A stretch of DNA of 64,000 bases from Gigantopelta aegis (taxonomy: Eukaryota; Mollusca; Gastropoda; Neomphalida; Peltospiridae), in contig NC_054704.1 in NCBI RefSeq assembly GCF_016097555.1, forward strand, positions 23,197,731-23,261,730, given 5' to 3'. This document shows, piece by piece, positions 13,904 to 46,678 of the stretch. The first letter of the stretch is position 1; each line of letters starts with the position of its first letter. Under the pieces are notes generated by a model that worked only from the letters and a program-made list of their open reading frames with translations, ran no database searches and had not been told where the DNA came from. Both the position numbers and the translations under genes were made by a program.

Positions 13904-14127
13904 TTATAGTTCATTGTTTGCTTCAATATCACTGTGCGTAGTTTGGACGCGAGTCGGGTTGTTATTCAGGCCCGATGTCACCTGAGTGCTGCCGGTATCT
14001 GTGACTGATGTACGGGGAGTAGTACTGGTAGCAGATGCAGCTGCCACAGCAGAATCCAGTGTCGTGTACATGAGATGTCCGTGATTCTTTATGAAATCAT
14101 TCGATCTCAATACACCCATAACTCTCT
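13904..14127 (-). CDS. SLC26: SLC26 coding exon 16 (end of STAS and C-terminal tail)
   Basis: Residues 700-773 and TAA stop at 13906-13904. Acceptor 'ttgtttcag|AG'. It encodes 'ERVMGVLRSNDFIKNHGHLM' and 'YTTLDSAV', the last STAS helix (family '..V...L...GFF.......F.T..DAV'). A Thr/Ser-rich, presumably disordered tail with several TP/TS sites follows. The last residues, NEL, are not a clear PDZ-binding motif. Confidence 0.95.
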
Positions 14128-17100
14128 CTGAAACAACAAAGTAGTTAATATATATATATTTTAAAATATCAAAGTTAAAGTTTAGTTTATTTAATATCAT
14201 TAGATCATATTGATTAATTAATCCTCGGCAATAGATGTCAAATTAAACGTGCGTAATTTTTCCATTGCAACAAGAGATCTTTTATATACACTTTCCTACA
14301 GACAAAACAGCACATGCCACAGTATTTGTTATACCAGTCAGAACTAAATCCCCAACACTGATGTGAATAAATTTGAAAGGAATGATTAATTGCTCCCATA
14401 ACTTATATTATGGAGAGCCATTTAAGATATTACCACACCGATACCATATAAATTTACATGCTAAGAGGAGCTAAACAATAATTTTAATTAGATGTAGTTT
14501 GAACAGAGCAGTTATATATACCTGCCCTTAAATGGTGAGGTCTGAAATCCAACCCTTAATATACCAGTTATGGTCACTGATTGGAAAAGAAAACGCTCAA
14601 ATTAGTCCATTCACCAAAGGGATCTTATCACCCATCAAAGGAAAATTTAATGAAATAAAGAAGCAAATACTTACCTCTAGCCTCCGCTACAAAAACCTTG
14701 ATATGTATATCTTCAAACTCAATTATAATCTACAAAAAAAAATGTATACAAATTGAAAATATTTAGAGACATATTCTTCATAAAAGTATTTAAACCTGCT
14801 TTCTTTAATAATCTGTTTGACAAATTTTATTCAAAGTGAATTATCACAGACACAAAAATGCAGTATTGTGCTACCTTGTGCATTCTCCAATCAGGGCAAG
14901 CCTCTGTTGGTGTGAACTGCTTGTATGTATATAATATGTGACATATAATGTCAAGCAACAGTGTTCAAAAACAAAATAAGAATTCCACTGAACTAAATGT
15001 CTCGCCTACCATAAAACATTTTGGTGCAATGTGAGGAACATCCATAGGTGCATTTATAAAGCAGGTTTCATTCACCTAGGATCTAAACACGAGACCTGAA
15101 TGCAAAAATTTATGCCATCACCACCACCACTTTATTACTCTATGTGTGTACTGGTATATTGTTTGTCGTTATATACAGGACAATATGTATTGATTTTAGT
15201 ATAAGCATTGTGTACAAAACTTTTAAAGAACTATGCATTTTGAAAAGCACATTTACAGATGATGCCGTATCATTACTAGTGTCTTCCACAGACATGCAGA
15301 ATGGCACTGGACTTTAAAGGCAAATTAATTGGGGAAGAGTACAGTATTTTGAATAAAACAGTATTTGGGTTTTGTAAACAGTAAACTTTGGCAGATTCCA
15401 TAATCACATATAAAAAATCAAAATTATTATTAAAAAATCAGTATTACGGAAGGATCATAACTGCATGTATATCATTAAAAAAAGACAATGAAAAGAGAGA
15501 AAAGAAAGTTCTGCCTATACTCAAAGCAATCAACAAATAAATGTCACTTATATGATATTTATGTCATATATTATTATAAAAAATAACTGCATTATCATAT
15601 TTGGTGTTAGTTTTACTGACAACTAATTTGAGGTTAGTTATACACCTGATAAATATTCAGTCAGGATGGAAGGAAATGTGTTATGTAATGACGCACTCAA
15701 CACATTTCTATTTACAGTTATATGGCATCGGATATATGGTTAAGGACTACAGATGGTTACTTACTGTCTTCAGTACCTGTGTTAACAACATTATGCTACC
15801 TACAACTCACCTGGTGCAGGGCACTGACACCCATCATATCAAAGAAGGTGACCCCCGACAAGTCCAGAATGATATGTTGAGGTCTTGAGCTTATCATTTC
15901 TGATTCTTCCATGTTGGAGTTGGCAACACAGTTGGCCTGAACTGATTCAGTCTGCATCATAAAAACAAACACAAGGAATTTATCTAATTTTGATGTGAAA
16001 GACATCCAAATTTTATCCTACTTCATGGCATTTGCCATTTTAACCTTTTCTTGATTTAATAAGTTGGAAATTATCAGTTTTACTCTCTATACTATACTTA
16101 GGTTATTAAAATCAGAAGACCTCACTAAATCTTAACATGACTAATATAATCAAACAGATTACTTCTATCCTTCATTATGTCACTACATGTACTTCAGGGT
16201 TGAAAATTAGCAGTCGCCCGGTCGCCTGCAGCGACCTTTATTGGCTAAGGGCAACTAAGAATTTTACAAAGGTAGTCTATTGCGTGACCATCGATTTTAG
16301 GGTCTGGCGATTATGGTACCAGTTGAAAAAAGAAAGACACTGAAACTGAATTGAATGTAACAAAACACACTGCGTTTGTGTTGGCATGAACTACAGATCT
16401 GGTAGCAGAATACATAGCACAAGCTCTATATTTTGACAATGACCGACTCGGCTTCTGTGGCTTTGGGCCAGGTTTTTCTAAAAATAAATTATTAAACTAA
16501 ATATTTAGGTTTTTCTAAATATAAATTATTAAACTAAATATTTTGGAGAGTTTAAAAAGTTTATTTGCGCACCCAAAAATAATATAAATAATAAAATAAT
16601 CATGTCTGAATACAAGAATCTGTATTAAAGGGACATTCCTGAGTTTGCTGCAATTTTTAAGACGTTATCGACTAATAGAGACTTTTTAACGATTGTAATT
16701 AAATATCAAATACATTTTTCTGCATAAAATATTAGTGGCTGTATATTAAACATGTTTCTGATCGTTCTAATATTTGTACTAGGTTAAATTTCATTTTATT
16801 TCTTTAAAAAAAAAAATGTTGGTACATACAAAATTATTTGAAGACAAATCCGGCTTAGGCTTCTTACAAATATTAAGATGACTAGAAACATATTGAATAT
16901 ACAGACACTGACATTCTAAATAAGAAAAAGTATTTAATATGTAAGTTTAATCGTAGAAATATTTTATTAGTCAGAAACATCTTACAACGCAACAAACTCA
17001 GGAATGTCCCTTTAAGAGACAAAGTTACTAACATTTGTTCTCTGGTCATCTATTGTGATGGTGTGCCCATTCTTCAGGAGATATTTCTTCAGCTTTATTG

Positions 17101-20100
17101 GGTTGATCCCGGTCAGTTTGTGAACCTTTTTCACAAACATTTCCGAGTTTGGAAAGTAAAGTGGTGCATCCAGTCTGATAACTTTAATACCTGGGAGTTC
17201 AGCAACCTGAAATAAGAAAGAAATACTTAGTTAATGACACCTACTTCAACATCATTTAAAATAAGACTATTTGATATTTACCTTAATATGTTTTTGCAAA
17301 CCTTAGTATAGCTTGTGCACAGTGTTCATTAATAGACACCAGGAGCAGATAATTATAGACACCAGGAGCAGATAATTAATAGACACCAGGAGAAGATAAT
17401 TAATAGATACCAGGAGCAGATAATTAATAAATTAATGTGCTCTACTGATTCATCCAATCCAATTATTCATTGCAACTCAGGCCTCAAGCACAGAGCTATA
17501 ATCCATTCCATTTTTATAAAGACAGTGAAACCCCTTTAAACTGGACCCTCTGTAAACCAAAATTCCTTCAAAACCAGACGTTTTTCAGTCCCTTTTTAAA
17601 TATCAGTTCCAAACATAATGGTTACCTCTGTAAACCGGGTACCCCTTAAAATTGGCTTTTTTACTAGGAACCTTGGGTGTCCGGTTTAGAGGGGTTTCAC
17701 TCTATAACAAAATTATTTTTTAAAACGCGGTCTCTGTTGACACTGTGTGTCTAGTGCAAGTTACCTGTTTGTAATACTTGAGTGATCTGAACTCGGATGT
17801 CTGGCTCACAATACCCACTGTCATCGAGGATAAGCTGGAAATGGCAAACACAGAGAGGGCTACATGTAATTACAACAGGAAACTCTTATTTGGTAAAACA
17901 TATATATAAATTACATTAACAAACAACAGTATCAGGGATCACATTAAGGGCCATTCAACAATTACGGAATGCAAAATTTGTATTTAAATTTGGTTTGGTA
18001 ATAAATATTGGACAGAATATCATATGTTAAAGAACATAATACATTTAGCAATGACAGGCTGAATTTTAATTTATTTTAAAAAAATGATACAGTTGTTTTG
18101 AAAATATTGCGTAACTCCTGACAACAAAGAGTACCTGTGAGGTACATGATATGCCCGTCAGGAGTGATGGAAAACCATAGATATTAATGAATATGTTATG
18201 GGTATGATTCAGTTCTATAATTATCAGAAACTTTTGCAATGGGATGGATGAACAATCTGTTTTGGACCAACTACTGATGATACTGTATCCATTGGAGAAG
18301 GTGCTGTCTGATTAATGAAGTTATTGTTCTTTATTAGAAGGGAAAATTTGTTTAGCATTTTTTTCAAAATTTTCCTATGATGTTCAGAATATAGACAAAT
18401 TATTTGATTTATTTGTATCATAGTGACCTAGTAATTGTATGTGACACATCACCATCCCAAATTGTTCCTACATGTGAGGTTTGATGCAAGATATGATCTG
18501 GACAAGGATTTAATGTTATGTGCAGTAGACCATGAAAACTAGGTCACAGTGACTTAGTAATAGTATGCGACACACCGCCATTCCAAGTTGTTCCTACATG
18601 TTTGGTTTGATGGTCCTGTATGCATCTGCATGCAAGATATGGTCTGGACAAGAAAACGTCAATAGACGGACGGACAACGTCAAACCATAATACGACCCAT
18701 CATAGACGGGCATATAAAAAAACTCTCCCTCTCCCCATACCATTTTGTAACGTATTCTATGATACCCCTTTCTTCCCAAAACCTTTAAGTGATTGATGAA
18801 CAGCCCTTATTCATTTTTGTCTAATACCTGATTATAAAATTAATGTAAATGATATTTATTAGGGATACTAGACACCATTACTGTACTGCCCAATATATTT
18901 TTGTTGACCGTGGACATAGGAAATTCTAACTCAATACCCTCAGTGATTATGTGCCTATAGCTACAAGAGTAGGTCATGGTGACCTAGTTATGGTACATAA
19001 CACACCTCCATCCCAAGTTGTACTTGGATGCAAGGTTTGATGATCCTATATGAAGTGATAAGAAAGATATGACCCAGACAAGGATTTCCTTTAATGTGCA
19101 GTAATGTGTGAAAAGTAGATCACAGTAACTTAGTTAGGTCACGGTGACCTAGTTATGGTGCACAATATCTGCCATCCCAAGCTGTATTTGCAAGCAAGGT
19201 TTTATGATCTATAAATATTTTAAATGACTAATGAAATTTGTCCAGTTGCCTTTTCTAATTTATGCCACATAGTCATAATTCAGTTTTATATAAAAATTTA
19301 TACTAAGTTGGATATAACAATGCACATATTTTCCGATAATAGAGTAAAACACCTCAGTAAACCTAAATTCCCTCAAAACCAGACCCTCAGTAAACCTAAA
19401 TTCCCTCAAAACCAGACCCTCAGTAAACCTAAATACCCTCAAAACCAGACCCTCAGTAAACCTAAATACCCTCAAAACCAGACCCTCAGTAAACCTAAAT
19501 TCCCTCAAAACCAGACCCTCAGTAAACCTAAATTCCCTCAAAACCAGACCCTCAGTAAACCTAAATTCCCTCAAAACCAGACCCTCAGTAAACTGGATTT
19601 CCCTCAAAACCAGACCCTCAGTAAACTGGATTTCCCTCAAAACCAGACCCTCAGTAAACTGGATTTCCCTCAAAACCAGACCCTCAGTAAACCTAAATTC
19701 CCTCAAAACCAGACCCTCAGTAAACCTAAATACCCTCAAAACCAGACCCTCAGTAAACCTAAATACCCTCAAAACCAGACCCTCAGTAAACTGGATTTCC
19801 CTCAAAACCAGATCCTCAGTAAACCTAAATACCCTCAAAACCAGACCCTCAGTAAACTGGATTCCCTCAAAACCAGACCCTCAGTAAACCTAAATACCCT
19901 CAAAACCAGACCCTCAGTAAACCTAAATACCCTCAAAACCAGACCCTCAGTAAACCTAAATACCCTCAAAACCAGACCCTCAGTAAACCTAAATTCCCTC
20001 CAAACCAGACCCTCAGTAAACTGGATTTCCATCAAAACCAGATGTTTTTCATGGTCCCGTTTTAAATATCAGTACAGAACAGAACCTCTCTATACTGGAT

Positions 20101-20835
20101 ACCCCTTAAAACCAGATTTGTTTACTAGATCCAATGGGTATCTGGTTCAGAAGGGTGTCAAAGGGAATAATACATTTGCCAACCACTCGGAAAATGAAAT
20201 TGATGAAAAGCAAGCATTTTAATGTGGCAAAGCATTGTAATAATACACCTAAATTTGAATTTGAATGACATCAGTATTCCAATGGCGTTACTTTACGTCT
20301 CCTTACAATAACATCAAACTGGGTCATGACCTCTCAAAAACGATCTCCAACATACAATTATGATATTCAACAGTGATCTCCTACACGGGTGTGTAAGAAA
20401 CAGTATTTTCTTACACCATTTAGTAGGTACATTTTTCATACTTTTATGACAATTTCTACATGTTTATGATGTTCCTTTATCTTACTGAGTTTTTTTATTT
20501 TATCTTAACTGTAATTCTAAACATTTAATGGCATACTAAATGGGGCATGATATTTTGTTGCTAACAATTTCATATTAAGCGTTGTGGGTATTTTTTTCTT
20601 CTTATGACTTAAGACATAAATAATAAGCAGAATTATTATACTCACATCTGTGTTCTCACAACCACAATAAATAAGGACACCAAAACACCAATCAGTAAAC
20701 CAATGTCCGTATCAAGCAGAACACAGGCTAGAAATGTCAGAATCCACACGGTCTGAAATTTAATACACATGTAATATATATATATATATATACATACATA
20801 CATACATACATACATACATACATACATACATACAT

Positions 20836-20891
<56 letters not shown>

Positions 20892-23800
20892 TATAGTCAT
20901 TATAATGAGCTCCAAATATAAAGAACAACATTTGGAAATATTTTAAATACTTGATACAACAATACAGAAATTTGTTTTAATAGTTTTCATTTTGTTTTCT
21001 TGAGTAAAGAGCTAAATATTTTCAATCAATGTTTTTTCCATGCAAAAATAAGTTAATTTAATATCAAAAATGAAAAAAGTCATATGCAGACCTAACAGCT
21101 CTACCCGATTTTATAGGAATCTCTTAATATTTGATCAAACCATCTTTTTTCCTGCCCAGAGGACTTTTCTCCTGAGAAATATCAATATTCTAAGTATATT
21201 ACATTCTGATCTACCTTAGCAGTGCTAATAATACAAGGGACATAATCGGTTTTTCAAACTGATAGCCAACAAGGGACATTACTTGTGACACTGGGGGAAC
21301 CTGACTATGTGTGGTAAGGACCCTTGGCTTGCAATGATGATGAACATATATACCTTTGTAGTTAAGAGTCCGTTTTAGGTGCAGTTACCTAATACCCACC
21401 GATTAAATATATGGGCTGGAGCATCGTTAACTCAACATTCATTTCTTTTCTTGCAAATACATTCAAACTAAAACAAAATTACAACCTAAATTTATCAATC
21501 CTTTATCTTGGGTTATTTACTTACACAGTCATATCGTGACTTGCGCCACAATTCTCTCAAAGTAAACAGTTTCATGAACATCCCACGGAGATTGACGATA
21601 ATAATACTTGCCAGGACACACTGAAATTAAAACAGGGTATAGTTACAAAAGTACAGATTTATTAACTATTATTACAAAAACACAGTGCTGTAATTGACTT
21701 AAACTAACTGTGGGGCCAGTAAAACAAAGTAATCAGGACACTAAAATATACAGTCTTGACTTCAGCTACATAAAATGGAAACTTTTGAATTAAAAAAGAC
21801 AACTTTTAAGTGAGAAACACAAATTACAAAAGGACTTTTATAATTAAACAATTGTGGGAAAATAAGGTTATGTGGTCAGCATAAATTTAGAGATGGTTAA
21901 TTCAATCTATATTCAAAAATTTCATTCTGCAGTTTGGAATCGAATATCAAATTGAAAAATAAAAATATACTTATATGAGCTAACCAAGTCATTAATATTG
22001 TAAAATTGAAAGAAAAAACAAATATATTGTCAACAATAGTAAATGATAAAATGTACACAGTTGACATTAAACATTATAAAGTGCCAGGACGAAGCCCAGT
22101 GGTAAAGCAATGGTGCATATAAAAGATCCCTTGCTACTAATGGGAAAAAATGTAGCGGGTTTCCTCTCTATGACTGTGTCAATTTGACCATATACATGTG
22201 TATCTGACATCCAATAGCCGATGATAAATAAATCAACGTGCTCTAGTGGTGTCATTAAACAAAACAAACTTTATTTATTATTTAAACATTATAAAGGAAT
22301 TCTGATTTGCTTATACATGTGTATGTGAATATTAATAAATTACTGTCTTGATGTCCAAGTTGCAAAATAAATCTGCAATGTCAGCATTTTTATCATTATG
22401 AAGTATTTACTTTGTTATTATCTGTACTAAATTGCTGACACCAGATGATGTGAATTTCAAGTTCTGAATATACGAGAATCAACTTACCAGTGGTAATGCG
22501 TGTAAGTAAGGACCAATGACCATGATGACTAACAAAACAACTGAGCATGCAATCAGCGACGTCACCTGAAATACAGTAATTAAAACTGTTACTATTTTGT
22601 ATGTTCAATAAAAAAAAATATATGCAACAGGTTTTGTTTCGTGCAAGTGTCATTATTACAACAATGTGTTATTTCAAATATTCCTTTCACTATAATTTTC
22701 CAAACATTAATGCAATGTTCATTTGATGACACCATTACAACTTATTTATAAATAGTTATTTAATTGTTTTATTATTTAGTACATAATGTAGTTTCTAGTA
22801 TGATAAATATTTTTGTGGGGAAATTTCAAATATAGGAAGGGAATCTATGGCTACTACGCTTTTTCAAAACAGCAGAAATAAAGTAATTTTCAAAATAAAC
22901 TACCTAAAATGTAGTACGATAAACGAGCACTTCTTAATAAAGAGAGCAAGGCAGGGAAAGGTATGTAAAGGCAGGGCAGGGCAGGGCAGGGCAGGGCAGG
23001 GCAGGGCAGGGCAGGGCAGGGCAGGGCAGGGCAATAAAAAGGTAGAGCAAGGCAGATGAAGAGAATGAAAAGCGAAGAAAGATGCAGGGAATGGAAGGCA
23101 AGGGAAGATACAGGGATGAAAATACAAGGGACTGTGCAGGGCAGGGCAAGGCTGGGCAGTTTAAGGAAACAGAGAATTGGATACCTGTGTCTTCCCCCCT
23201 GCCCCATCTTGAACTAAGCTCAGTGATATGGAGGCCGATGCAAAGTAGCCAGGAAACAGTGAACAGACGATTCCCGCCACTCCGGACGCCAACATCTCCT
23301 GTAAAGACAACACCAACTACTACAACTACCCAGCATGCAGCCATCCGTACCTGAGTGCGACCTCCAGCGCCGTCCTGCACGATGGACCGTGACACTGACG
23401 CTGCAGTGAAAAATCCCGAAAAAATAGAACACACAAGACAGGCCGAACCAATTGCAAACATCTCCTGAAACAAATAGTTAAACAAGGTGAGATATTTCTC
23501 AGACAAACCCACAGGTGACTGTAGTTATATTATAATGATTATAAAGTCCTAATTCAGGTTTTTGTTTAATATCAGTATAAGCACTGCAACACTTGTGGTT
23601 TGTTCAGTTTGACTAGAATGATCATCCTCTATCACATCAACATTCATTTAACATTAGGTGTACAAAATCAGTCTAGTGAGCAACCGCATGGGTAACTTCA
23701 CCTCAAAAGGAAGGTTTTCTTCTAAGACAATTGATGATAATATCCATTTATCTACTTACCAGCAATACACCAAAACAATATAACATTTTGAAGTGTAATA

Positions 23801-26800
23801 GAAGCCACAGCATAGGCCTACATAATGTACAAATTCAATACATGCACAAAACTGATTCCGAAAGATGTTATTACAGAAGGAAGGAAATGTTTTATTTAAC
23901 GACACACTCAACACATTTTATTTACGGTTATATGGCATCATTCATACATTGTATGGTTAAGAATCACACAGATATTGAAAGAGGAAGCCCGCTGTCGTCA
24001 CTTCATGGACTACTCTTTTTGATTAGCAGCAAGGTATCTTTTACATGTACCATCCCATAGACAGGATAGTACATACCACGGCCTTTGTTACCCCAGTCGT
24101 GGAGCACTGTTTGGAACAATGTTATTATAGATGCATGAGATTACGCTGTACTGGCACCAAAAAGTATTTCACAGAAATATTGCTAAAATTATGTTGAGGG
24201 TGAAATATCTGAGTGAGTTAGTCAGTATATATATATATATTATTACCAGAGTATTTTTCGGTATTGTCAATATCATATATTAGGAATAAAACTGTATTAT
24301 GCGAGTCTCTGGCGAGCATAATACATTATTTTTATTCCTAATATATGATACTGACAATACCGAAATACACGAGGGTAATAATCTCTTTATCATATAAGCT
24401 CAAGCTTAATACGTGTTTTTGTAAACTGTACACGCAACTTTAATTCCAGTCTGCCAATACTAGATATTCAAATGACGTAAGAATATGTGGCGCAGTGTAT
24501 TTTTGAATGGAAATGACCTCTGATTAACTATTTAAATTTCAGCAAAAAGAATTTTAAAAATTCCTAGGTTGTTATTAAAGTCTGAAGATATGACAGAAAT
24601 CAACTTAAATAAAATCATAAATGTAAACAAATACAAATTATATAAATTACTTTTAAATATATGGTAAAACAGCAGTGGAAAAATTAGTCTTTAGAAATTC
24701 ATTATTGTTATGTTCCGACCCTGATATGTCAAACAAAAAACAAAGTCAGAAAAGTTATTAAACTCACACATTCAATTTGAAAAAAATGTTTGTGTGTAAA
24801 TATTAGTAAACATTTTCCAGAAAGAATGCAACATGAACAAAAGTCTCATCACTCCTATTGTGTTAAAAATCATTCATCTTATAAAACAATTACATATATA
24901 TTTTGACATATAGTCATCAGAGGAAATCCACTACATTTTTTCTAATTCAACAACGGATCTTTTATATGCACTTTCCCACAGACAGGATAGCACATACCAC
25001 AGCCTTTGATATACCAGTCGTGGTGCACTGGCTGTAATGAGAAACAGCCCAATTGGCCCACTGATGGGGATCGATCCCAAACCAACCGCACATCAAGCGA
25101 GCACTTTACCACTGGGCTACGTCCCGCCCGCTGATGTCACATAAAGCCTTATAAACAGTATTTAGGTCATATAAAGTGGAGTAGAACACACTTTACCACT
25201 GGGCTACGTCCTGCCCGCTGATGTCACATAAAGCCTTATAAACAGTATTTAGGTCATATAAAGTGGAGTGGAACACACTTTACCACTGGGCTACGTCCCG
25301 CCCGCTGATGTCACATAAAGCCTTATAAACAGTATTTAGGTCATATAAAGTGGAGTAGAACACACTTTACCACTGGGCTACGTCCCGCCCGCTGATGTCA
25401 CATAAAGCCTTATAAACAGTATTTAGGTCATATAAAGTGGAGTGGAACACACTTTACCACTGGGCTACGTCCCACCCGCTGATGTCACATAAAGCCTTAT
25501 AAACAGTATTTAGGTCATATAAAGTGGAGTGGAACACACTTTACCACTGGGCTACGTCCCGCCCGCTGATGTCACATAAAGCCTTATAAACAGTATTTAG
25601 GTCATATAAAGTGGAGTGGAACACACTTTACCACTGGGCTACGTCCCGCCCGCTGATGTCACATAAAGCCTTATAAACAGTATTTAGGTCATATAAAGTG
25701 GAGTGGAACACACATTTTTTTCAGAAAACTTGCAACAGTGATATTTTTAATTTTACACATGTCCACTAAACAGCAAGATGTAGTTTATGAATACGAGTAT
25801 GTAGACAGGATCTTAGGGATTTCCCATTATTCCCAACACATTAATGATCGTTTTAGTCCCACACTTTTCGCAGACAATGCAGATTGAATTAGAATGAAAC
25901 ATTACCTGGTTGGAATCGACTTTATAGTTGTGCTTGATGCCAAATGTTTTTGCCATGGACACAGTCTGAGCATACGCCACAATGGCAATAATCATACCTT
26001 CTGCTATGTAATCTTTGGCTAGGAGAACGTTGGGAAGACGTGGTACAGGAACCCTACAAGAGAACGTACTGCTATATGAAATATAACGGTTCGTACATCA
26101 AACTCAAACAATTAAATTTTCTTTGCATCTATACACTTTACAGCAATCAGATTGGTCCAGAGGTGCTTACCTTTTTTTTGTTCAAATCTCGATGAACTGA
26201 AAAAATTTAAGCCACGCTTACTACCACCAACCCCACCCCGACCCCAGCTGACTCAGACTATTTTTGTGCAACAAGCCGAATTATTTAGATACAAAAGCAA
26301 TAATATTGTGACACAGATACCATGTAATATGATAAATTAATAGAAAATGCTATAACAGAATAGATATGTATACGCATTGATTAAAAACAAAAAACTCTTA
26401 ACTAATAAAATGAGACTCGGTCAGTGGCCAACGAAATGTAGAAAACTTCACGCCTGAAACTTACTTGTAAGCATTGTTCTACAGCTGTCAGCGAAAATTA
26501 ACCGGTTCCGTCGACAGTGGAAATGTTTGATACATTCCCTTCATTCATATTCAAAAAATATAAACTAAACATGAATCGGACAATTCTTCCAATATATCTA
26601 AATGATCTGTAGAAATGTACACAGCAGCTAGAGAAAATGGTGTCACTTATCAAAATTACATCATGACATCCTTTAAAAAATAGTGAATGAATGTTTGTAT
26701 TCTCATGCGACATAAGTATCAATGACGTTTACACAAACAATACTAAAGGCATATTTAAGCTAAACAAAATAAATTCAGTTATGTATTGTTATAGTGGGCA

Positions 26801-29800
26801 TATAAATTTAATTATAAGATTTGATTGCAATTATTTTTTGGTTCATGCAACTATGAACCAAAAATATGATGTGGACACTTTTGTATGACCCTCTACATGT
26901 AGTCATACGGTGTACACATTGTTTTTTAGGTTCATATTTGCATGAGCCAAAACATAATTGCGGTCAATTCTTAAATAATTATGATAGAACATGCAGATTC
27001 ACCTATTGTTTTTAAGATTTGCAACTGAAGAAGAAGTTTTGTTTTGTTTAACGACACCACTGGAACACATTGATTAATTAATCATCAGAGGAAACCCACT
27101 ACATTTTTTTTAATGCAGCAAGGGATCTTTTATATGCACTTTCCCACAGACAGGAAAGCACATACCACGGCTTTTGTCCAATGGTTGGAATGAGAAAAAC
27201 CCAATCGGCTGAATGGATCCACCGAGGTCGTTCAATCCTGCGACACAAGCACCTCGAGCGAGCACTTAACCAACTGAACTAAATCCCACCCTGTGGTGAA
27301 TTTGACGAATGTCGGGGCTAGTCCTGCATAGAATGCTTTCCAGTCTTGCAATGGGTCATAGGATCCATCACCTTCAATGGACTCAATGAATTTTTTGCCA
27401 TTTCAACCAGTGTCCAGTGAGTGGTAAACAAACTACATATGGGATAGTGCATATGAAATATCAGGAAATACAATATGGCCTGATATTATTTCCGCTAAAA
27501 TAAAATAATTATGGCCTTCTGAAAATAAGAAGGCATGGGAGGGTTTGGGATAGTGTGAGAAATTAGGACCTCTGAGGTATATTTTAAAGCATTATGGAAT
27601 TATGAGCTAAATAGCAGATGTCATAATCGTACATTCATCTGTCTCTTAAATAATTACCTTCCAGGTTTAAAAAAAAATTGACTGCTTTTCACTTTTCACT
27701 ACTCTGAGCCCTGGATATCTCTTGCTGCTATTTGGAACGAAGGGAGGAAGGAAATGTTTTATTTAACGACGCACTCAACACATTTTATTTACGGTTATAT
27801 GGCGTCAGACATATGGTTAAGGACCACACAGATACTGAGGGAGGAAACCCGCTGTCGCCACTTCATGTGCTACTCTTTTTGATTAGCAGCAAGGGATCTT
27901 TTATATGCACCATCCCATAGACAGGATAGCACATACCACGGCCTTTGATGTACCAGTCGTGGTGCACTGGCTGGAGTGAGAAATAGCTCAATGGGGATCG
28001 ATCTCAAACCGACTGTGCATCAAGCGAGCGCTTTACCACTGGGCTATGTCTCGCCCTGTTTATTTGGAAGGAGTAACCTACATGTATGTTGTGATTGGAC
28101 TCTAGACCAAGTGCCAAACTATCCATAGTCACAGCCTAAAGTGCTTGAGGCCACAAACAAATACTGTAGATCCTGAAATTAACGTGTTCCTAAATCAATA
28201 AGAGTAGACTAGAATGTGACATGAAATTAATGCAAGTGGCCTCCCTTTGAAATATTACTTTCTTAATAACACACGTCTGTGTAGTTTTTCATTAAATCCG
28301 AGTTACAGGCATCTTTAATAAGATCAACTCACTTACATATATGTCTACACATCAATTTAACCTGTTTAGTCTCCAGTGTTTTTGGTTAAGTCAACTCAAA
28401 GCATATTTTTGCAGCAATCATTTACCTAACATGTATAGTTACCTAAATCTGGCTAAACATTAGCATACATGTACCATTACAACTGTATCGTTCTATGATA
28501 TGCCGACAAAATTGCAGTGAACTTGAACAATAAAAAGAAAAAACAGTCGACCTCGGGATTAGCATGCTAAGGACCCATTCATGCGAGATGGATCGTGTCG
28601 GCTTTTGCTGGATTATTGGACAATTAATCTGTCTTCCCTATGATGAATTGTGCTCCTGTTTTATAAATGTATTAGAATTTTAATCTTTGTTTTAAAAACG
28701 TGTGACACACAGCTTGCTGGATTATTGCTGGACATAACATAGAAATAAATATGTCATATTATTAATGCGATTAACCCCAACTCGCCTTTTTCCCATTAAT
28801 ATTATGACTGCATTAATTTCAGGATCTACAGTACTCCGTTTCCTTCCTCAATATAGAACCAGATAAACATAACTTGAAGCTTGATATAAAACAAAATACT
28901 CTGAGTACCACCCTGTGTATCTAATTAAGATCATTTGTTTTTTATGTTTATTTGTACAATTTTTGCTCTTTTTCATTGCTATTTTTATTAACGTGACAAA
29001 AGTATATCATAAAACAAAAGTTTTGAATTCAAATAATTTTGTATTTCAAGTACATATAATATTGGAATATTTTAACATTACAAGAACTTACCCAACAGGA
29101 ATGTTGCCAACAACAGGAACATCATAGTTTGTTTGAAAATATCCATAATGTGAAGCAAGTGTGCCAGCTATTACCTAGAGATCAGAAACAAGAAGATGAA
29201 GAAATCATCCAGCTATCTGTGAGTGAACACATTGCATGTATGTTAAACATAATGGAACATATTCAAAGAGAATAACTAGTTAATGACGTCAGATATCTGC
29301 TTTATCCTGTGAAGGTAACAATGGGAAATTTCTCATTCGGCCTAAACAGGATAAAGCAGATATCTGACATCATTAACTAGTTATTGTCTTTGTCCTGCAG
29401 ACCATAAAAATTAAAGGGAAAAGCTATTATTTCTGTTATTTCAGCCACCTTGTACGATGACCTAGAGGTCAAATGAGTGATTTTGTAATGTAGCTATGCA
29501 TATAACATCACATGAGTGATGTCAAAAGTCATATCCTGTTACTAGCAGGATATGACTTTGCTTTATCTGGCATCATATTCTGTCAATAGAAACGTTGGTT
29601 GCAGGATAAAATTATTTATTTTATATACCATATTAAGGCTGATTTGTAAACCAACAATTTCATCCCGGCCTCAGGGATTGAAAATTTACATAAACCATTT
29701 ATGGTTTACACAAAATAAACTCCGGTAACCCATTCAATGTTTACACAAAATAAACTCCGGTAACCCATTCATGGTTTACACAAAATAAACTCCGGTAACC

Positions 29801-32800
29801 CATTCATGGTTTACACAAAATAAACTCCGGTAACCCATTTATGGTTTACACAAAATAAACTCCGGTAACCCATTTCCTTTCTGAGTAACTCATTATTTCC
29901 ATGTAAATGATGTTTTAAATTTAATGTACAAATGAAAAATATACGTTAGGCAAAATTATATTTATTTATAACGAGAAATGATTGTTCTCACAATTTTTAA
30001 GGGCCTGTTCTTACAGACAGAATAGCACATACCAAAACATTTGATATACCAGTTATGAACTCTGGTTGGAGAAGATAACTCATTGTAAATGTGCCAGCTT
30101 CAATAAATATAATTTTTATAATATCAATAAGAAGAACTCTATACATGCTTTTTAAATATTAATACAAATAATCTTGCTACTGGGTATTACGAAATCAACA
30201 TAATCTAAAATACGAAGAGCAATAATCTTACTATTATGAGCTCTATAGGAACAGGAATTCTCATTTTCGACTTGAATCTCTGATTAACCTGTGTTTTCAC
30301 CAGATACATGATCAGGATACATGTTGAACATATGATCACAGTGGCTGGATTGGATTTTGAGATATTAGCAAACATATCATACCATGTCTGAAAGTAAAAA
30401 AACCCCAGATATATATATATTCAAACTAACCTGATTAAAAATTAAGTTGCAATCTCAAGAATATTTCATAATCTTTAAATATGCATTTAGAATAGATTAC
30501 GATACCTATTTAAATTTCTTCCTAAGACACAATTTTAATATGTTGGCTGTAATTACATGTATATGATTTCAATTCAATTCCACCCTGAACGTACATGTAT
30601 TTTAATATGTTGGCTGTAATTACATGTATATGATTTCAATTCAATTCCACCCTGAACGTACATGTATTTTAATATGTTGGCTGTAATTACATGTATATGA
30701 TTTCAATTCAATTCCACCCTGAACGTACATGTATTTTAATATGTTGGCTGTAATTACATGTATATGATTTCAATTCAATTCCACCCTGAACGTACATGTA
30801 TTTTAATATGTTGGCTGTAATTACATGTATATGATTTCAATTCAATTCCACCCTGAACGTACATGTATTTTAATATGTTGGCTGTAATTACATGTATATG
30901 ATTTCAATTCAATTCCACCCTGAACGTACATGTATTTTAATATGTTGGCTGTAATTACATGTATATGATTTCAATTCAATTCCACCCTGAACGTACATGT
31001 ATTTTAATATGTTGGCTGTAATTACATGTATATGATTTCAATTCAATTCCACCCTGAACGTACATGTATTTTAATATGTTGGCTGTAATTACATGTATAT
31101 GATTTCAATTCCACCCTGAACGTACATGTATTTTAATATGTTGGCTGTAATTACATGTATATGATTTCAATTCAATTCCACCCTGAACGTACATGTATTT
31201 TAATATGTTGGCTGTAATTACATGTATATGATTTCAATTCAATTCCACCCTGAACGTACATGTATTTTAATATGTTGGCTGTAATTACATGTATATGATT
31301 TCAATTCAATTCCACCCTGAACGTACATGTATTTTAATATGTTGGCTGTAATTACATGTATATGATTTCAATTCCACCCTGAACGTACATGTATTTTAAT
31401 ATGTTGGCTGTAATTACATGTATATGATTTCAATTCAATTCCACCCTGAACGTACATGTATTTTAATATGTTGGCTGTAATTACATGTATATGATTTCAA
31501 TTCAATTCCACCCTGAACGTACATGTATTTTAATATGTTGGCTGTAATTACATGTATATGATTTCAATTCAATTCCACCCTGAACGTACATGTATTTTAA
31601 TATGTTGGCTGTAATTACATGTATATGATTTCAATTCAATTCCACCCTGAACGTACATGTATTTTAATATGTTGGCTGTAATTACATGTATATGATTTCA
31701 ATTCAATTCCACCCTGAACGTACATGTATTTTAATATGTTGGCTGTAATTACATGTATATGATTTCAATTCAATTCCACCCTGAACGTACATGTATTTTA
31801 ATATGTTGGCTGTAATTACATGTATATGATTTCAATTCAATTCCACCCTGAACGTACATGTATTTTAATATGTTGGCTGTAATTACATGTATATGATTTC
31901 AATTCCACCCTGAACGTACATGTATTTTAATATGTTGGCTGTAATTACATGTATATGATTTCAATTCAATTCCACCCTGAACGTACATGTATTTTAATAT
32001 GTTGGCTGTAATTACATGTATATGATTTCAATTCAATTCCACCCTGAACGTACATGTATTTTAATATGTTGGCTGTAATTACATGTATATGATTTCAATT
32101 CAATTCCACCCTGAACGTACATGTATTTTAATATGTTGGCTGTAATTACATGTATATGATTTCAATTCAATTCCACCCTGAACGTACATGTATTTTAATA
32201 TGTTGGCTGTAATTACATGTATATGATTTCAATTCAATTCCACCCTGAACGTACATGTATTTTAATATGTTGGCTGTAATTACATGTATATGATTTCAAT
32301 TCAATTCCACCCTGAACGTACATGTATTTTAATATGTTGGCTGTAATTACATGTATATGATTTCAATTCAATTCCACCCTGAACGTACATGTATTTTAAT
32401 ATGTTGGCTGTAATTACATGTATATGATTTCAATTCCACCCTGAACGTACATGTATTTTAATATGTTGGCTGTAATTACATGTATATGATTTCAATTCAA
32501 TTCCACCCTGAACGTACATGTATTTTAATATGTTGGCTGTAATTACATGTATATGATTTCAATTCAATTCCACCCTGAACGTACATGTATTTTAATATGT
32601 TGGCTGTAATTACATGTATATGATTTCAATTCAATTCCACCCTGAACGTACATGTATTTTAATATGTTGGCTGTAATTACATGTATATGATTTCAATTCA
32701 ATTCCACCCTGAACGTACATGTATTTTAATATGTTGGCTGTAATTACATGTATATGATTTCAATTCAATTCCACCCTGAACGTACATGTATTTTAATATG

Positions 32801-35800
32801 TTGGCTGTAATTACATGTATATGATTTCAATTCAATTCCACCCTGAACGTACATGTATTTTAATATGTTGGCTGTAATTACATGTATATGATTTCAATTC
32901 AATTCCACCCTGAACGTACATGTATTTTAATATGTTGGCTGTAATTACATGTATATGATTTCAATTCAATTCCACCCTGAACGTACATGTATTTTAATAT
33001 GTTGGCTGTAATTACATGTATATGATTTCAATTCAATTCCACCCTGAACGTACATGTATTTTAATATGTTGGCTGTAATTACATGTATATGATTTCAATT
33101 CAATTCCACCCTGAACGTACATGTATTTTAATATGTTGGCTGTAATTACATGTATATGATTTCAATTCAATTCCACCCTGAACGTACATGTATTTTAATA
33201 TGTTGGCTGTAATTACATGTATATGATTTCAATTCAATTCCACCCTGAACGTACATGTATTTTTATTTTAACAAAATGTTGACTTTTATTTGAAATTTTA
33301 AATGCTCACCTGTGATATTTATACATGTATATATGAAATTTTAATATACTGTGATATTTATAATTTACAGTTTTGATTCAACATTGGAATTTTTATATAA
33401 GAATTGTTCGTCATTTTTTGCAAATCTATTGATGTATAACAGTCACAAATTGTATAAATTCGCAAAATATGTCCTTTTCTAATGATGTCTCAGCTGGCAT
33501 AATGACGTGATTTTCTGAGGTTTATCGAAGGATAACATTCAGTTTTTCTTTAACGACATCCAATCAGAATTGAGGAAATCGTATAAAAGTGGAAAGTTTG
33601 TAATTATATTGATGTTGATCATCAATTCATGCTTTTACTAATGTTACACGCAATATCTGATATATTTTTGTGTCTTTAAAAATTCGTATAGTAGTTATTA
33701 ACATAAAAATACAGATAGTTATTATGATGTTATCCATCTTACTGTCATCCAAACACTGGTATTACAGTCTTACCAAGACAATCTTGCCGATTCCAGTATG
33801 TCGTGGCAGCTTAAGACCGAAGACGTTCTTCAGCTGACTGCTGATTACATGGATGGACACCCCAACAGTGAACGATGTGATCAGGGCATTCGACATGTAC
33901 GTAATGACAAAACCAAACCCACACTTGCCCATGATCATCTGTGAAAGAAACCAGGGTATGTGGCATCACTGGTGAGGACACAACACAATCATATATTTAT
34001 CAAAGATCCCTTATTATTCAAACCCACACTTGCCCACAATCATCTGTGAAGTAAACAAAGATGGTGAGGGCGCATAACAATAATTAATTTATCAAACAAC
34101 CCTTATTATGCATTCAAAATTAGGTAAAACATCAGTATATCCAAAATAATTCATACAAAAAAGAGATCAGAGGAACATCAGTGCAAACACTCAACAATAA
34201 TATAGTAGGAAAAATATAATTTGTATGTCAAGCTCAGATTGGAAATTATTTTAAGTCCTAAGACAATTTCTGGTCCACTGAAGGGAATTATGGGTAGTGA
34301 TGCAACAGATACAAACAAGCATTCTGAGAGTACTGCTAATAATAACAATAAATTAATACGTGTTCCCTACTGGGCCCCACAGATGTCCCAAGTTCAAGGC
34401 CCATAACTGTCAAACAGTGATACATTCCATTTGTGACAGAGTTATGGGCCTTTAATAAAGGAAGAAAGGAAATGTTTTATTTAACAACGCTCTCAACACA
34501 TTTTATTTACGGTTATATGGCATTGGACGCCCTTTAATAAATTTCATAATGTTAAAAACTCTATCTATTGATTGTTGATGCTTTATTATATAATACGAAC
34601 CGTGATAAGACCGGCTACAAGAGTGACTGCCCCTGCTAATTCAACTCGCTTAGCAACCGCTTCGGCTGTCATTTCTGGAGATGTGTCTTCAGACAGAACA
34701 CCAGAAACAGTGGTGAGGTTGCCAATGATATTGTACTCACTCCCTGTTGATGCCGACATCAGGACAGCCGTTGGTACGGCGGTTGTCATGGTAACAACAG
34801 ACACATTCTGACTGAGTATCATCGTCTCCTTCACATTCTCATCATACTTATCGAGAATACTTGCCATCATCAAACTAAGAACAGCTATGCATCCTGGGCA
34901 AAATATATACATAAAACCCAGTATTAACAGTTTCGCCACTTCAATCACATACAAATAATTGCATCTTTTACCTATATAATAGTAAATGCTGTTTTAAACA
35001 TAATTAAAAACATTACTGGTCAACAAGTAACATCTTCAATTTTCACTACTTTGCCTTGTACTTCATTAAGTAGATAACCATATATATATATGGAAGTTTT
35101 AGATTTGTGCATGTCATTGTCTATTTGATGCCTGTAAATGTCATTTCTGACTGACTGCATTAGGTCGAGGTCAGACATAAAACATCTGAAGACATCAAAT
35201 AAACAATGACACCTACAACTCTAAAGACTCCATATGCTTATGTCCATTGTAAACTGAAATGTTTTCCCAGAGAAAACTGAATGACTCATATTTCTTTTTT
35301 AAAAAAACTACCTGGTAACAATCTAACTATGGACCACTGAACAGTTAACTTTTCATTTCCTAATTTTTAATGTCACTTTCATTTCATTTCCACTTATTTT
35401 TGTGCTTATATCCAATTACGGTTCAAGCATGCTGTCCTGGGCACACACATCTCAGCTATCTGGGCTGTCTGTCCACGACAGTGGGTTAGTTGTTAATTGT
35501 TAGTGGTTAATGAGAGAGAAGAGGGTGTTGTGACCCATTGAGTCATTAAAACTCGCTCTGGGTGGGAGCTGGTACCGGGATGTGAACCCCATACCTACCA
35601 GCCTTATGTCCAGTGGCTTAACCACAACACCACCAAGGCCCGTTAATTTTTAATGTCACTTTCTAATGTAATTATCCAATCACATTACAGAACACATCCA
35701 CTATCAGTTGACAATTTGAAACAAGCATATTAAGAGTATGGCTAAATGCAATACATGTCCACTACCATGCAGGCCCAATACATTTTTGTATCTCCTAAGT

Positions 35801-38800
35801 TCAAAGGCCATAACTCTTAAAAAAACGTAAATCAACATTAAATTCAAACTTGATCAGTCACAGTGTACAAAGCTGTATACAAAATATCAGCTCAATATGT
35901 TGACAGACAGAAGGATGGTGACAGACAGGATGGTGACAGACAGAAGGATAGTGACAGATAGAAGGATGGTGACAGACAGAACGTGACCGACAGAAGGATG
36001 GTGACCGACAGGATGGTGACCAACAGAACGATGGTGACCGACAGAAGGATGGTGACCGACAGAAGGATGGTGATCAAAGCTATAGTCCCCTCCAGTTAAA
36101 TAAAATCACTGTGAGGTTCCTGCAAGAACAAGGTTTTTGCTATGCAATATGCCCATTATAACGGCTTCAGTATATGTACATGTAGTTTCAAATAAATAAA
36201 ACCGAAACCAAACATACTCACCCAGTGAAGACTGTCTTGATGTGCCAAAAAAGAAGTATGTGAGTGGTGCGAATAAGGAGATGTATAGCCCGACAATCGG
36301 AGGAAGAGTGGACAGGGCTCCAAATGCCATTCCTGAAACATATGATAATTTTTAACATAATACACAAGACCATTTTTAGTTTCTGATCATACAGACCACT
36401 TTCTTTGTATCTACCTGATGCTGCATATCGCAAGAATTTTTTCGCACTCGGGACCATGCAGTTGACTACTGTACACATACAATTCAAAAATACAATGCTA
36501 ATGGAAGCCGCCATCTTTGTCACAATATAAAAGTGGCTATATATAGTGGCCGTATATATAGCATCGGCTATTGAGGGATGACTATTCATACGGTGGTCAT
36601 ATTATGAGGGGGGAGAGACAGTATAAGGCCACTACTCCCCGTCTAAACTTTCCCATGCTAATCATAATTAAGTAATAATCTAGTCATGTATATACTACTC
36701 CAACTTTTTCTTGGGATATATTGAAAAACATGTTAAGTAAAGCAACTGCATTTATTTTGTTTGATCCAGTTAGTGCACCACGACTGGTAAATCAATGGTC
36801 ATGGTATGTGTTATCCTGTCTGTGGGATGGTGCATATAAAATATCCCTTGCTACTGATGGAAAAATGTAGTGTGTTTCCTCTCTAAGACTAAATGTCAAA
36901 ATTACCAAATGTTTGACGTCCAAAAGCCGATGTGCTCTAGTGGCATCGTTAAACAAAACAAACTTTACTGTGTTTGATGGATGACATATCTAACTAGTCA
37001 TGGGTTACTATGCCGATGTATGGAATATCCAAACCACACAGACTCACTGATAACATGTTACACAGATTTAACACGTGTACAATTTGTTTATCATGACATA
37101 AATGTCAGTATTGCCCTAGAGAGTTATGCAGTTTTCAAAACTCAAATATTAGTGAAAATCAAACAAATATGCATAACATTAGCAGTGCCATATCTAATTT
37201 GTTTTACTTTACAATATATTGATTAAAACATTTTCCTTCCTCTTTAAATTTATGTGAACCACTGGTTTTAGCTAACTAACATTTGGACAGCCACATTACT
37301 AGCCCCGGATACTTAGCACATGTGTCCATTTCGTATATATTTAGTTAAAGAAGAAACAGGCTCAGGTCATGTAACTTTAGCATAGTTCAGTATCACAAAA
37401 TTAATTCAAATTGTGTAGAGAGAATGATTTTTGGATAAAATATACTATTATCAGACCTTGTCTTTTAAGGTGCGAGAGTGTGATCGTGCTCGTACAGCGC
37501 ACATAATTTCAATCTGGCGAGTGTGAAAAATAACACATGTTACACTTAACAAACAGCGCGTGTAAAATAATTTTGTATATTGATTGCCACTATTTACCTT
37601 ATGTAACTGATAGAAAGACCCATTTTATAATAAAAAATAAAAAAATGTGATGACAACGGTAGCATCCATGCAAGCTTTTGATATATGACTGGTACTTATC
37701 TTTGCTATACAAATCAGAACACACTTGTTTAATAGACATCTTCGAAGATGTACCAATCCGATCAAAACTCCTTTGCCTATTTAATTTATTATCACGTCTG
37801 ATAGGGCCAACTTATTTATACTGTTTATATAGTTACGAAAAAAAATTGGAATTGAATTAAATAGTAGCTTCTGAGCCTACATAAATGAACTCATTACGGA
37901 AATCAGCGACGTCGGTAAAATTGTCTTGATTAGTTCACAATTGTTAGCCTACAAAACTTACGCAAGGTCCCGAATATGGCAAGCATGTAACTTTCTACTT
38001 TCTTTAAAAAAGAAATGAAATTGAGACAAAGACAATTCAAAAGTTGACAGAATAATAAAAAGAAAGGAAAGAAATGATAATTGGTATGTAGGAATAGCCT
38101 CAGGTCTTGTTTACAAAAAAAAAGTTACTTTTTACGTCTATTATTATTATTATTATTATTATTTCTTCTTTAAAAAAATTCAAATAAAACTTCATTTAAA
38201 TATCTGTATTTCAGCCAGAAGTTAATGCATGTATATCTGTTATTTATATAATGTATACATGTACATAATATAGTAACGACTATTTAATTTTTTTTTCAAT
38301 ACGTTTGTTAGAAAGTCACAGACCACTGTGACTGGAACATGATTTGATGAGCAGTAGTCTGTGACATATTGACCAATCAGAGCTATCACGGTCTTGGAAC
38401 TTGACAACTTGTTTCACATTTATGATGATGTCTAAAATTATGGGGTTTTTTTTTTTTAGATTATCTTTATTATGAAATCCCACATTTGGAACAAAAATCC
38501 TTTGTAACGACAGATTTTGTCTGAGTTTGTATATTTTTTAACAACAATATTAGAACCGTTCTAGATCAATAACATAACACTGACTTGATACAGATGTCAC
38601 AGCTGGTCGTAACTGGTAGTGGTAGGTCAAATGACATGTAACAAAATGTTGAGGAAGGGAGACTGGTTGCGTAATTGTTGAATTAAAAATGCCACTTGAA
38701 TGTCAATGCCTCAACCAACACTATTAATTGAACTAATTGTAGGCCTATGTTTAACGAGTTATTAAAAAAATAAAATAATATGAGGGATCTAATTCAGTCG

Positions 38801-41953: not shown

Positions 41954-42644
41954 ATCGGGCCTGAAATGTAAGAGCATAATTATATAATTAACAAGCATGC
42001 TGAGAGTATACTGCTAAAGCATTACATTTCCCCTACCGGGCCGAATTTTTTTTCTATTTCCTAAATTCATGGGCCAAAAACCCCCAGGGTAAATTGCCTT
42101 GAAAGTTACACATGATCTGTACTAGTAACAGTATATATGATAAAGCTATAAACAAAAGTTCAAATGCCATAACTCTGTGAAAAATGGGTAAATTACCATG
42201 AAAGTCGAACTTGATCTGTAACAGAAATGATAAAGCTCTACACAAAATTTCAGGTCAATATCTCAAGGCATTCTGAAAAAAAAAATCCAGAAAAGTATAT
42301 GTGGGACAGACAGATGGACAGACAGAAAGACAGACTGACAGATGAACGGAAATGAAACCTATAGTTCCCTCCAGTTGGACTGGTAGCCTAGGGGACTAAT
42401 AAGAGCCATGTGCTCACACTACAGTACTAGGAAAAGTGATTAAAAAGACAACTTTGCTTTGATCAGGTTGATATTGCCCTATCATTGTCTCTGAAATAAA
42501 ATCTCTGTCACCTTGCACAAAAGGTAGGTGTCACTTGCTTTGTACATAATTGCATGTGAATGGTGAAGAACTTAAAGAAAGCTGTGGTATGTTTGAACAA
42601 CCTTTTCACAGATAATAATTAAGTGTCAATTAACTCAGTCAGCA

Positions 42645-45925: not shown

Positions 45926-46278
45926 TAGTCTAGTGGTAAAGCGTTCACTTGATGCGTGGTCGGTGGGCTCATTGGGCTATTTTTCATTCCAGCTAGTGCT
46001 CCACAGCTGGAGTAACAATTTTAAGGCTGTGGTATGTACTATCCTGTCTGTGGGATGGTGCATATTATGCCATATAAAAGATCCCTTGCTGCTAATCGAA
46101 AAGAATAGTCCATGAAGTGGCGACAGCGGGTTTCCTCTCTCAATATCTGTGTGGTCCTTAACCATATGTCCGAAATACGTCAAATAAATAAAACCGTAAA
46201 TACAATGTGTCAATGAACTGCTGTAGTTGATGGCAGCTTTGTGCCACTGTGTTGTTAAATAAAACATTTCCTTCCTTT
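45926..46278 (+). mobile_element. SINE, head type 1 / tail type 1 with a foreign insert in its tail
   Basis: Head 'gtagtctagtggtaaagcgt', body, and tail, but 46213-46249 ('tgaactgctgtag..gccact') interrupts the tail. The same insert is part of the array that follows. Confidence 0.88.
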
Positions 46279-46678
46279 CAAATAGGACTCGAACTTAACA
46301 GTGGCATTAATGAACTGCTGTAGGTCTCGGCTTTTGTACTGATGGCAGCTTTGTGCCACTGAATAAAACATTTCCTTACTTTCAAATAGGACTCGAACTT
46401 AACAGTGGCATCAATGAACTGCTGTAGGTCTCGGCTTTTACTGATGGCAGCTTTGTGCCACTGAATAAAACGTTTCCTTCCTTTCAAATAGGACTCGAAC
46501 TTAACAGTGGCATCAATGAACTGCTGTAGGTCTCGGCTTTTACTGATGGCAGCTTTGTGCCACTGAATAAAACATTTCCTTACTTTCAAATAGGACTCGA
46601 ACTTAACAGTGGCATCAATGAACTGCTGTAGGTCTCGGCTTTTACTGATGGCAGCTTTGTGCCACTGAATAAACATTA
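46279..46678. repeat. 102-bp tandem array (about four units) including a SINE tail
   Basis: Units start 'aaataggactcgaacttaac' at 46279, 46384, 46486 and 46588; each ends 'aaaacatttccttactttc', the SINE tail. 102 bp is 34 codons, so a repeat frame stays open on the minus strand; it is not supported as a gene. Confidence 0.92.

Follow-up and report, generated by a model that had tools for sequence, protein, structure and literature searches.

Can a single SLC26 gene supply two transporters that differ in the charge of their anion site, by a choice between two versions of one exon? The question is raised by a gene on the minus strand of the window (i.e. the whole stretch of 64,000 nucleotides analyzed, C6:23197731-23261730 of the 1.149-Gb assembly). 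Joining exons at AG/GT boundaries and translating the product gave one complete SLC26 gene of 16 coding exons and 773 amino acids, with an open frame running from an ATG at 41953 to a stop codon in the exon at 14127-13904. Coding exon 1 (41647-41953, in an exon that begins at 41960) was placed by AG/GT boundaries, phase and translation. Exon 2 (36222-36332) starts inside IPQGMAFG, the TM1 part of the anion site, and exon 3 (34601-34893) carries the TM3 half-site. Exons 4 (33774-33938), 5 (30232-30387) and 6 (29092-29174) come from the AG/GT joining model, as do exons 10 (21525-21620), 11 (20646-20752) and 12 (17765-17834). Exon 13 (17033-17206) lies inside the match to the STAS domain (residues 574-725), which continues through exons 14 (15811-15951) and 15 (14675-14729) to its end in exon 16 (13904-14127), together with the stop codon. 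Exons 7 (25906-26053) and 9 (22488-22565) have a phase that fits either of two versions of exon 8, which lie between them on the same strand and are termed 8a (23464-23351) and 8b (23298-23185); they are separated by an intron of 52 nt (23299-23350).

The protein that contains 8a (isoform a) scores 338.3 bits against the Sulfate_transp membrane domain PF00916 (cut-off 23.2) and 56.7 bits against the C-terminal STAS domain PF01740 (cut-off 22.6), while that containing 8b (isoform b) scores 447.7 bits against the sulP subfamily model TIGR00815 (cut-off 380.45). Either isoform finds 25 distinct SLC26/SulP sequences with a solved structure at E values up to 0.001; against prestin 7v73 isoform b aligns over residues 10-156 and 219-616 and, weakly, over a third stretch in the STAS domain. 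The assignment to SLC26 made in the initial annotation is supported, and its numbering of exons 7, 8a, 8b and 9 proves to be that of the coding exons of the full model. A further stretch of 58 nt flanked by AG and GT (23817-23760) was considered as an extra exon between 7 and 8a and dropped because its inclusion breaks the downstream frame; leaving it out gives back the full frame of 773 residues, so it is not counted as an exon. The introns of the gene contain several repeats. A 67-nt satellite (30532-33263, about 41 copies with 98% match) lies in the intron that separates coding exon 4 from exon 5, and there are intronic minisatellites of 33 nt x 20 (19352-20021) and 87 nt x 7 (25102-25713); another of 102 nt x 4 is found at 46258-46677 of the window.

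The two versions of exon 8 are neighboring internal exons of equal length. Both have 114 nt, are in phase 0 on both sides, and are preceded by AG and followed by GT. 8a translates as EMFAIGSACLVCSIFSGFFTAASVSRSIVQDGAGGRTQ and 8b as EMLASGVAGIVCSLFPGYFASASISLSLVQDGAGGKTQ, with identity at 24 of 38 residues and 67 of 114 bases; 14 residues differ, and 8b retains GAGGKTQ at the end of the segment. Coordinates, translation and tblastn therefore agree with what had first been noted of the pair, i.e. adjacent 114-nt phase-0 exons with their own AG and GT and 24/38 identity. The 8a and 8b peptides find each other in the window by tblastn at E = 1.6e-13. When the peptides of the 16 coding exons and of 8b were queried against the window this was the sole match with E < 0.01 apart from self matches, and no further duplicated exon was found there. 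Taken alone in a scan of the whole genome with PF00916, 8a scores 34.3 bits and 8b 33.4 bits against the cut-off of 23.2. In a neutral simulation 47 random substitutions were placed on 8a in 20000 replicates; no replicate kept 24 of 38 residues (the mean identity was 11.9 residues and the maximum 20), and only 26% of the simulated copies were free of stop codons, as 8b is. Together the tblastn match, the domain scores and the simulation argue that the likeness of 8a and 8b is not due to chance.

The transcript could in principle contain either exon (773 residues), both (811) or neither (735), with the frame kept in every case. Since the frame survives joint inclusion, only spacing or regulation could forbid it. 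We consider that the spacing probably does so. Among 49 introns measured in five SLC26 genes, 16 in the present gene and 33 in four paralogs (the paralog values being taken from tblastn edges), that of 52 nt has the smallest length, followed by one of 189 nt. A distance of less than 50 nt between donor and branch point is the threshold for steric exclusion (PMC5740500; cited in PMC7969005), and in an intron of only 52 nt the branch point must lie within that distance of the 8a donor. The splicing machinery would therefore lack the space to connect 8a with 8b, and each transcript would take one or the other. As evidence against an absolute block, bona fide human introns shorter than 66 nt have been reported (PMC4463651). 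In favor of exclusive use, homologous exons of the same length and phase are rare in the class annotated as constitutive or differentially included, where the X chromosome of the fly has 90 among 16180 (PMC3228551). From the spacing and the preserved coding of both exons we infer that 8a and 8b are spliced in a mutually exclusive manner.

It is scarcely credible, by comparison, that the pair is an artefact of assembly or that both exons are included together as an insertion of 38 residues. The two copies differ at 41% of their nucleotides (47/114), which excludes a duplicate made by the assembly. A transcript with both exons would indeed remain in frame, but it would repeat within the fold the segment that leads into TM10, and its production would require the splicing of an intron far shorter than any other measured in these genes.

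The splice sites of the two exons are of unequal strength. At 0.8 bits the 8b donor (CAG/gtatcc) is weaker than each of the 14 constitutive ones of the gene (1.5 to 11.3) and than that of 8a (7.9), and the acceptors score 9.3 (8b, a good site) and 12.1 (8a); the matrix used is small and was built from the same gene, so that these values are a guide only. The fraction of pyrimidines over the 20 bases before the acceptor is 0.55 for 8b and 0.75 for 8a. With so weak a donor 8b may be rarely used, and 8b might even have been silenced recently, leaving 8a alone in meaningful amounts. The poorer pyrimidine tract would fit with this. On the other hand, 8b has no stop codon, keeps its exact length and its AG and GT, has a serviceable acceptor, scores above the PF00916 cut-off by itself and shows a bias over codon positions in its own lineage, and we regard rare use or silencing of 8b as improbable. 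The combination of a weak donor and a good acceptor fits a default use of 8a with regulated inclusion of 8b.

The pattern of substitution bears on the age of 8b. The 47 nucleotide differences between 8a and 8b are split 12/6/29 over codon positions 1/2/3, and while pS is saturated at 0.876, pN is 0.249. Such saturated synonymous change with restrained change in the protein indicates that 8b is an old coding exon. Each lineage was also taken by itself: for 8b, through the sites at which 8a agrees with most of three paralogs from the same cluster, and for 8a through the mirror test. At positions 1, 2 and 3 the lineage of 8b has changed at 5/27, 2/31 and 10/15 sites, and that of 8a at 4/26, 3/32 and 6/11; because the sites were chosen as conserved elsewhere the absolute rates are biased, although this bias alone does not explain the excess at third positions. 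The concentration of the 8b changes at third positions argues that the lineage of 8b has itself been under constraint at the level of the protein.

Three more SLC26 genes lie on C6 within about 220 kb at lower coordinates, and these were compared along with a relative on C3. By tblastn, which located exons 7, 8 and 9 in each, all four have exon 8 as a single exon of 114 nt with AG and GT, and with that exon masked no second full exon 8 was found by tblastn between exons 7 and 9 of any of the four. The best residual matches were pieces of 11 residues in one gene, within a repeat of an acceptor plus the start of the exon. A tree built from 13 peptides of exon 8 places 8a, 8b and the three copies from the C6 cluster in one group (98/94), without settling their order inside it; the sequences from C3, from elsewhere on C6, from C1784 and from vertebrates fall outside this group. 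8a has 23 to 25 residues in common with the cluster copies, and 8b has 20 with each. The simplest account of these sequences is that exon 8 was duplicated either in the present gene or in the cluster member from which it directly descends, with 8a remaining nearer to the older form; given the saturated synonymous change, this duplication would not be recent.

We note exon-like repeats in two of these relatives. In the paralog at C6:23059422-23059983 (L010:54-615) a unit of 59 nt is present about 9.5 times just upstream of exon 8, each unit having a TTTCAG that resembles an acceptor and, after it, a diverged version of the beginning of exon 8; these units could possibly act as a row of decoy acceptors. 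In the C3 paralog (C3:81539299-81540998; L013:3000-4699) the end of the exon equivalent to 20752-20646 of the window has multiplied to form an array of about 25 units, each of 67 nt, in which 17 tblastn matches retain DLGLLVGV with a helix-like stretch after it.

The residue of greatest interest in exon 8 is at position 447. Alignment to prestin 7lgu pairs Ser398 and Arg399 of that protein with Ser446 and residue 447 here, the latter being arginine in 8a and leucine in 8b. The basic residue of an exchanger-type site at the N-terminus of TM10 is therefore present in isoform a (Arg447) and missing from isoform b, and only isoform b has a non-polar residue there (Leu447), a feature of SLC26A9. 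The N-terminus of TM10, at the anion-binding site, is the place of the basic residue (PMC11078650). A positive residue is described at this place in all other mammalian members in one report (PMC6656431), and in most members, not all, in another (PMC10328499), while SLC26A9 naturally has Val393 (PMC11078650, PMC10328499, PMC6656431). Three points of the initial annotation hold at this site: the swap of arginine for leucine, the prestin numbering, which the alignment reproduces, and the non-basic residue of SLC26A9, which is Val393 in the three reports just cited.

Arginine is otherwise constant at this position in the copies read. The PF00916 scan of the genome gave at least 51 matches from 84 scored candidates, of which nine are separate exons over the exon-8 part of the profile; such scans score the best candidates only, so that the counts are lower bounds. 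Eight of the nine have arginine, namely 8a, those on C6 at 22.995, 23.059, 23.181 and 99.93 Mb, those on C3 at 81.546 and 96.386 Mb, and that on C1784; the ninth is 8b, with leucine. Six intronless SLC26 frames of 668-838 residues (C9:27.7 and 37.3-37.5 Mb, and C1151) have Pro-Arg as the anion-site pair, making arginine in 13 of the 13 other copies read (seven exons and six intronless frames), a count that leaves out exon 8 at C8 65.74 Mb, C1278, C6 27.97 Mb, C6 29.10 Mb and C3 81.579 Mb. Five of the six intronless frames are closely related, and they are possibly amplified retrocopies; broken or partial relatives (L023-L026, L035) also keep the arginine. The exon 8 of C1508 (L041:2328-2441) was set aside from the count. 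It has exactly 114 nt with AG and GT, its middle is in another frame owing to two offsetting frame shifts, and in the frame of its ends it reads aspartate at the position of 447. Tandem pairing was examined in the four paralogs, and each of the other genes gave one exon-8 profile match.

The rest of the site is less conventional. The TM3 half-site, Pro-Phe in prestin, is Cys141-Ile142 in both isoforms. This pair is also Cys-Ile in the C6 gene at 22.995 Mb, is Thr-Thr in that at 23.181 Mb, and is Thr-Ile, Thr-Val or Thr-Phe in further SLC26 genes of the genome. The TM3 phenylalanine is described as highly conserved, and its substitution by alanine in SLC26A7 raises transport (PMC12356840). Outside exon 8 too, then, the SLC26 proteins of this genome deviate from what is seen in mammals, and with TM3 residues unlike those of prestin in both isoforms the transfer of function by homology is weak.

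This has a bearing on whether leucine at 447 is decisive at all. Were both exons used, the difference between them might tune anion affinity or selectivity rather than coupling, with the leucine just one of 14 changes among the 38 residues. The unusual TM3 pairs (Cys-Ile, Thr-Thr, Thr-Ile, Thr-Val) would then mean that the mammalian rule on arginine may not hold here, and SLC12A1 (NKCC2), another chloride-carrying solute transporter, also has mutually exclusive homologous exons (PMC9741552). Yet the arginine is kept in all 13 other copies although TM3 and the preceding residue (Ser, Ala or Pro) vary, which argues that position 447 matters by itself, and we consider an effect on affinity or selectivity alone rather unlikely.

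Comparison with SLC26 proteins of solved structure gives similar scores for the two isoforms. On going from 8a to 8b the score rises against both SLC26A9 chains (7ch1, 350.3 to 355.3 bits; 6rtc, 341.6 to 346.8 bits), and moves from 451.9 to 453.6 bits for prestin 7v73, from 281.1 to 282.7 bits for SLC26A7 and from 357.3 to 358.6 bits for pendrin 8sgw; it falls against SLC26A2 (7xlm, 405.7 to 399.7 bits) and SLC26A6 (359.8 to 356.0 bits). When a region of 111 residues was scored alone the shifts for SLC26A9, SLC26A2 and SLC26A6 were in the same direction. By these scores 8b appears as family-like as 8a, and the small shift is not proof of a function like that of SLC26A9. Nor do the scores support an orthologue of SLC26A9, as chains of prestin, SLC26A2, SLC26A3 and pendrin outscore SLC26A9 with isoform b, for which SLC26A6 also comes within a bit of it.

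What the loss of the arginine would do is best judged from vertebrate members. The basic residue of TM10 is essential for antiport by SLC26A4 (pendrin) and for the motor function of SLC26A5 (prestin) (PMC11078650). In SLC26A6 the substitution R404V led to loss of Cl/HCO3 exchange and gain of a slow uncoupled transport of chloride in liposomes; in patch-clamp recordings its currents did not significantly exceed those of the wild type (PMC10328499). Prestin R399V ended the motor signal and gave a small uncoupled chloride transport, seen through the reversal potential, and the rise in conductance was not significant; pendrin R409L is a listed disease-associated variant (PMC11078650). The converse substitution V393R in SLC26A9 abolished the current and conferred no exchange activity, and the authors regard the non-polar residue as crucial yet not sufficient (PMC11078650). 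From the SLC26A6, prestin and pendrin variants and the natural valine of SLC26A9, the likeliest effect of 8b is loss of coupled exchange, with slow uncoupled transport of chloride possible.

We therefore favor a reading in which the gene makes two SLC26 proteins through mutually exclusive use of 8a and 8b, isoform b losing coupled exchange and passing chloride in an uncoupled manner; we put its probability at roughly 0.55. By analogy with the vertebrate members isoform a, with its basic anion site, would be a normal exchanger. Isoform b, having lost the charge, would no longer couple the exchange of bicarbonate or divalent anions, and would allow uncoupled passage, probably slow, of chloride or other monovalent anions. 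If the choice of exon depends upon tissue or state, the mode of transport would be switched while the rest of the protein is unchanged. The initial annotation had gone further in suggesting an exchanger-like and a channel-like isoform. That suggestion finds only partial support, since the uncoupled transport obtained on changing arginine to valine alone in SLC26A6 and prestin was slow or very small. That one gene alternates in this way between coupled exchange with Arg447 and a channel-like, uncoupled route for chloride with Leu447, through exclusive tandem exons 52 nt apart, is a tentative proposal that may well prove too strong.

The weak transport of the arginine-to-valine mutants, and the listing of R409L as a disease variant, mean that 8b may equally encode a weak or dead transporter. 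The exons would still be used singly, and the 8b protein would serve in the SLC26 dimer as a dominant negative or a regulator of trafficking. That SLC26 proteins are homodimers (PMC11078650), that the basic residue is indispensable to pendrin and prestin, and that coupled exchange was abolished in SLC26A6 R404V all speak for this. Against it, a protein with a regulatory role alone should have accepted more change than is seen in 8b, with its codon-position bias and its conserved end of the segment, and the SLC26A9 fold works with a non-polar residue at this place. A solely regulatory 8b is in our view unlikely, yet it deserves to be taken seriously.

The mutually exclusive exons of SLC12A1 affect ion affinity; we know of no swap of charge in the substrate site made by them, and SLC12A1 belongs to another family, that of the cation-chloride cotransporters. 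The nearest precedent for an exclusive exon pair at an ion site is NALCN, where exons 15a and 15b of snails and other invertebrates are likewise tandem homologous exons that exchange one charge at the ion site, giving EEEE or EKEE; the pair is present in molluscs, and the expression of its isoforms differs by tissue (PMC3557258). NALCN is a four-domain cation channel, whereas the present gene encodes an anion transporter, and the change there is from glutamate to lysine, compared with arginine to leucine here; its splicing was demonstrated by cDNA while that of 8a and 8b is deduced from the genome, and the currents of both NALCN isoforms were not distinguishable from background (PMC3557258). 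The present case transfers this kind of exon pair to an SLC26 transporter. SLC26A9 resembles isoform b in having a non-polar residue (Val393) in place of the basic one of TM10 (PMC6656431, PMC10328499, PMC11078650), but it is a separate gene, with no alternative exon mentioned in the cited passages, and its TM3 differs from that of the present protein. For the spacing the parallel is OGDH, where the exclusive pair 4a/4b is enforced by a distance from donor to branch point of less than about 50 nt; there the intron has 118-131 nt in birds and mammals with distant branch points that have been mapped (PMC7969005), while here the whole intron has 52 nt, which sets an upper bound on that distance. 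In searches of the SLC26 and prestin literature outside subscription papers and preprints, none of the listed titles and abstract openings described such an exon pair.

The role of the TM10 basic residue has so far been probed by point mutants (R404V, R399V and V393R) that give partial answers. Here both states of position 447 have apparently been kept by selection in one protein background until synonymous change was saturated, and Leu447 is accompanied by 13 other changes, which may be what the single mutants lack. Comparison of 8a with 8b could therefore reveal the residues that, combined with the missing charge, suffice to convert an exchanger into a transporter without coupling. If the favored reading is true, a transporter joins the NALCN channel among the proteins whose ion-site charges are swapped by splicing, and splicing would control the mechanism of transport, not affinity alone.
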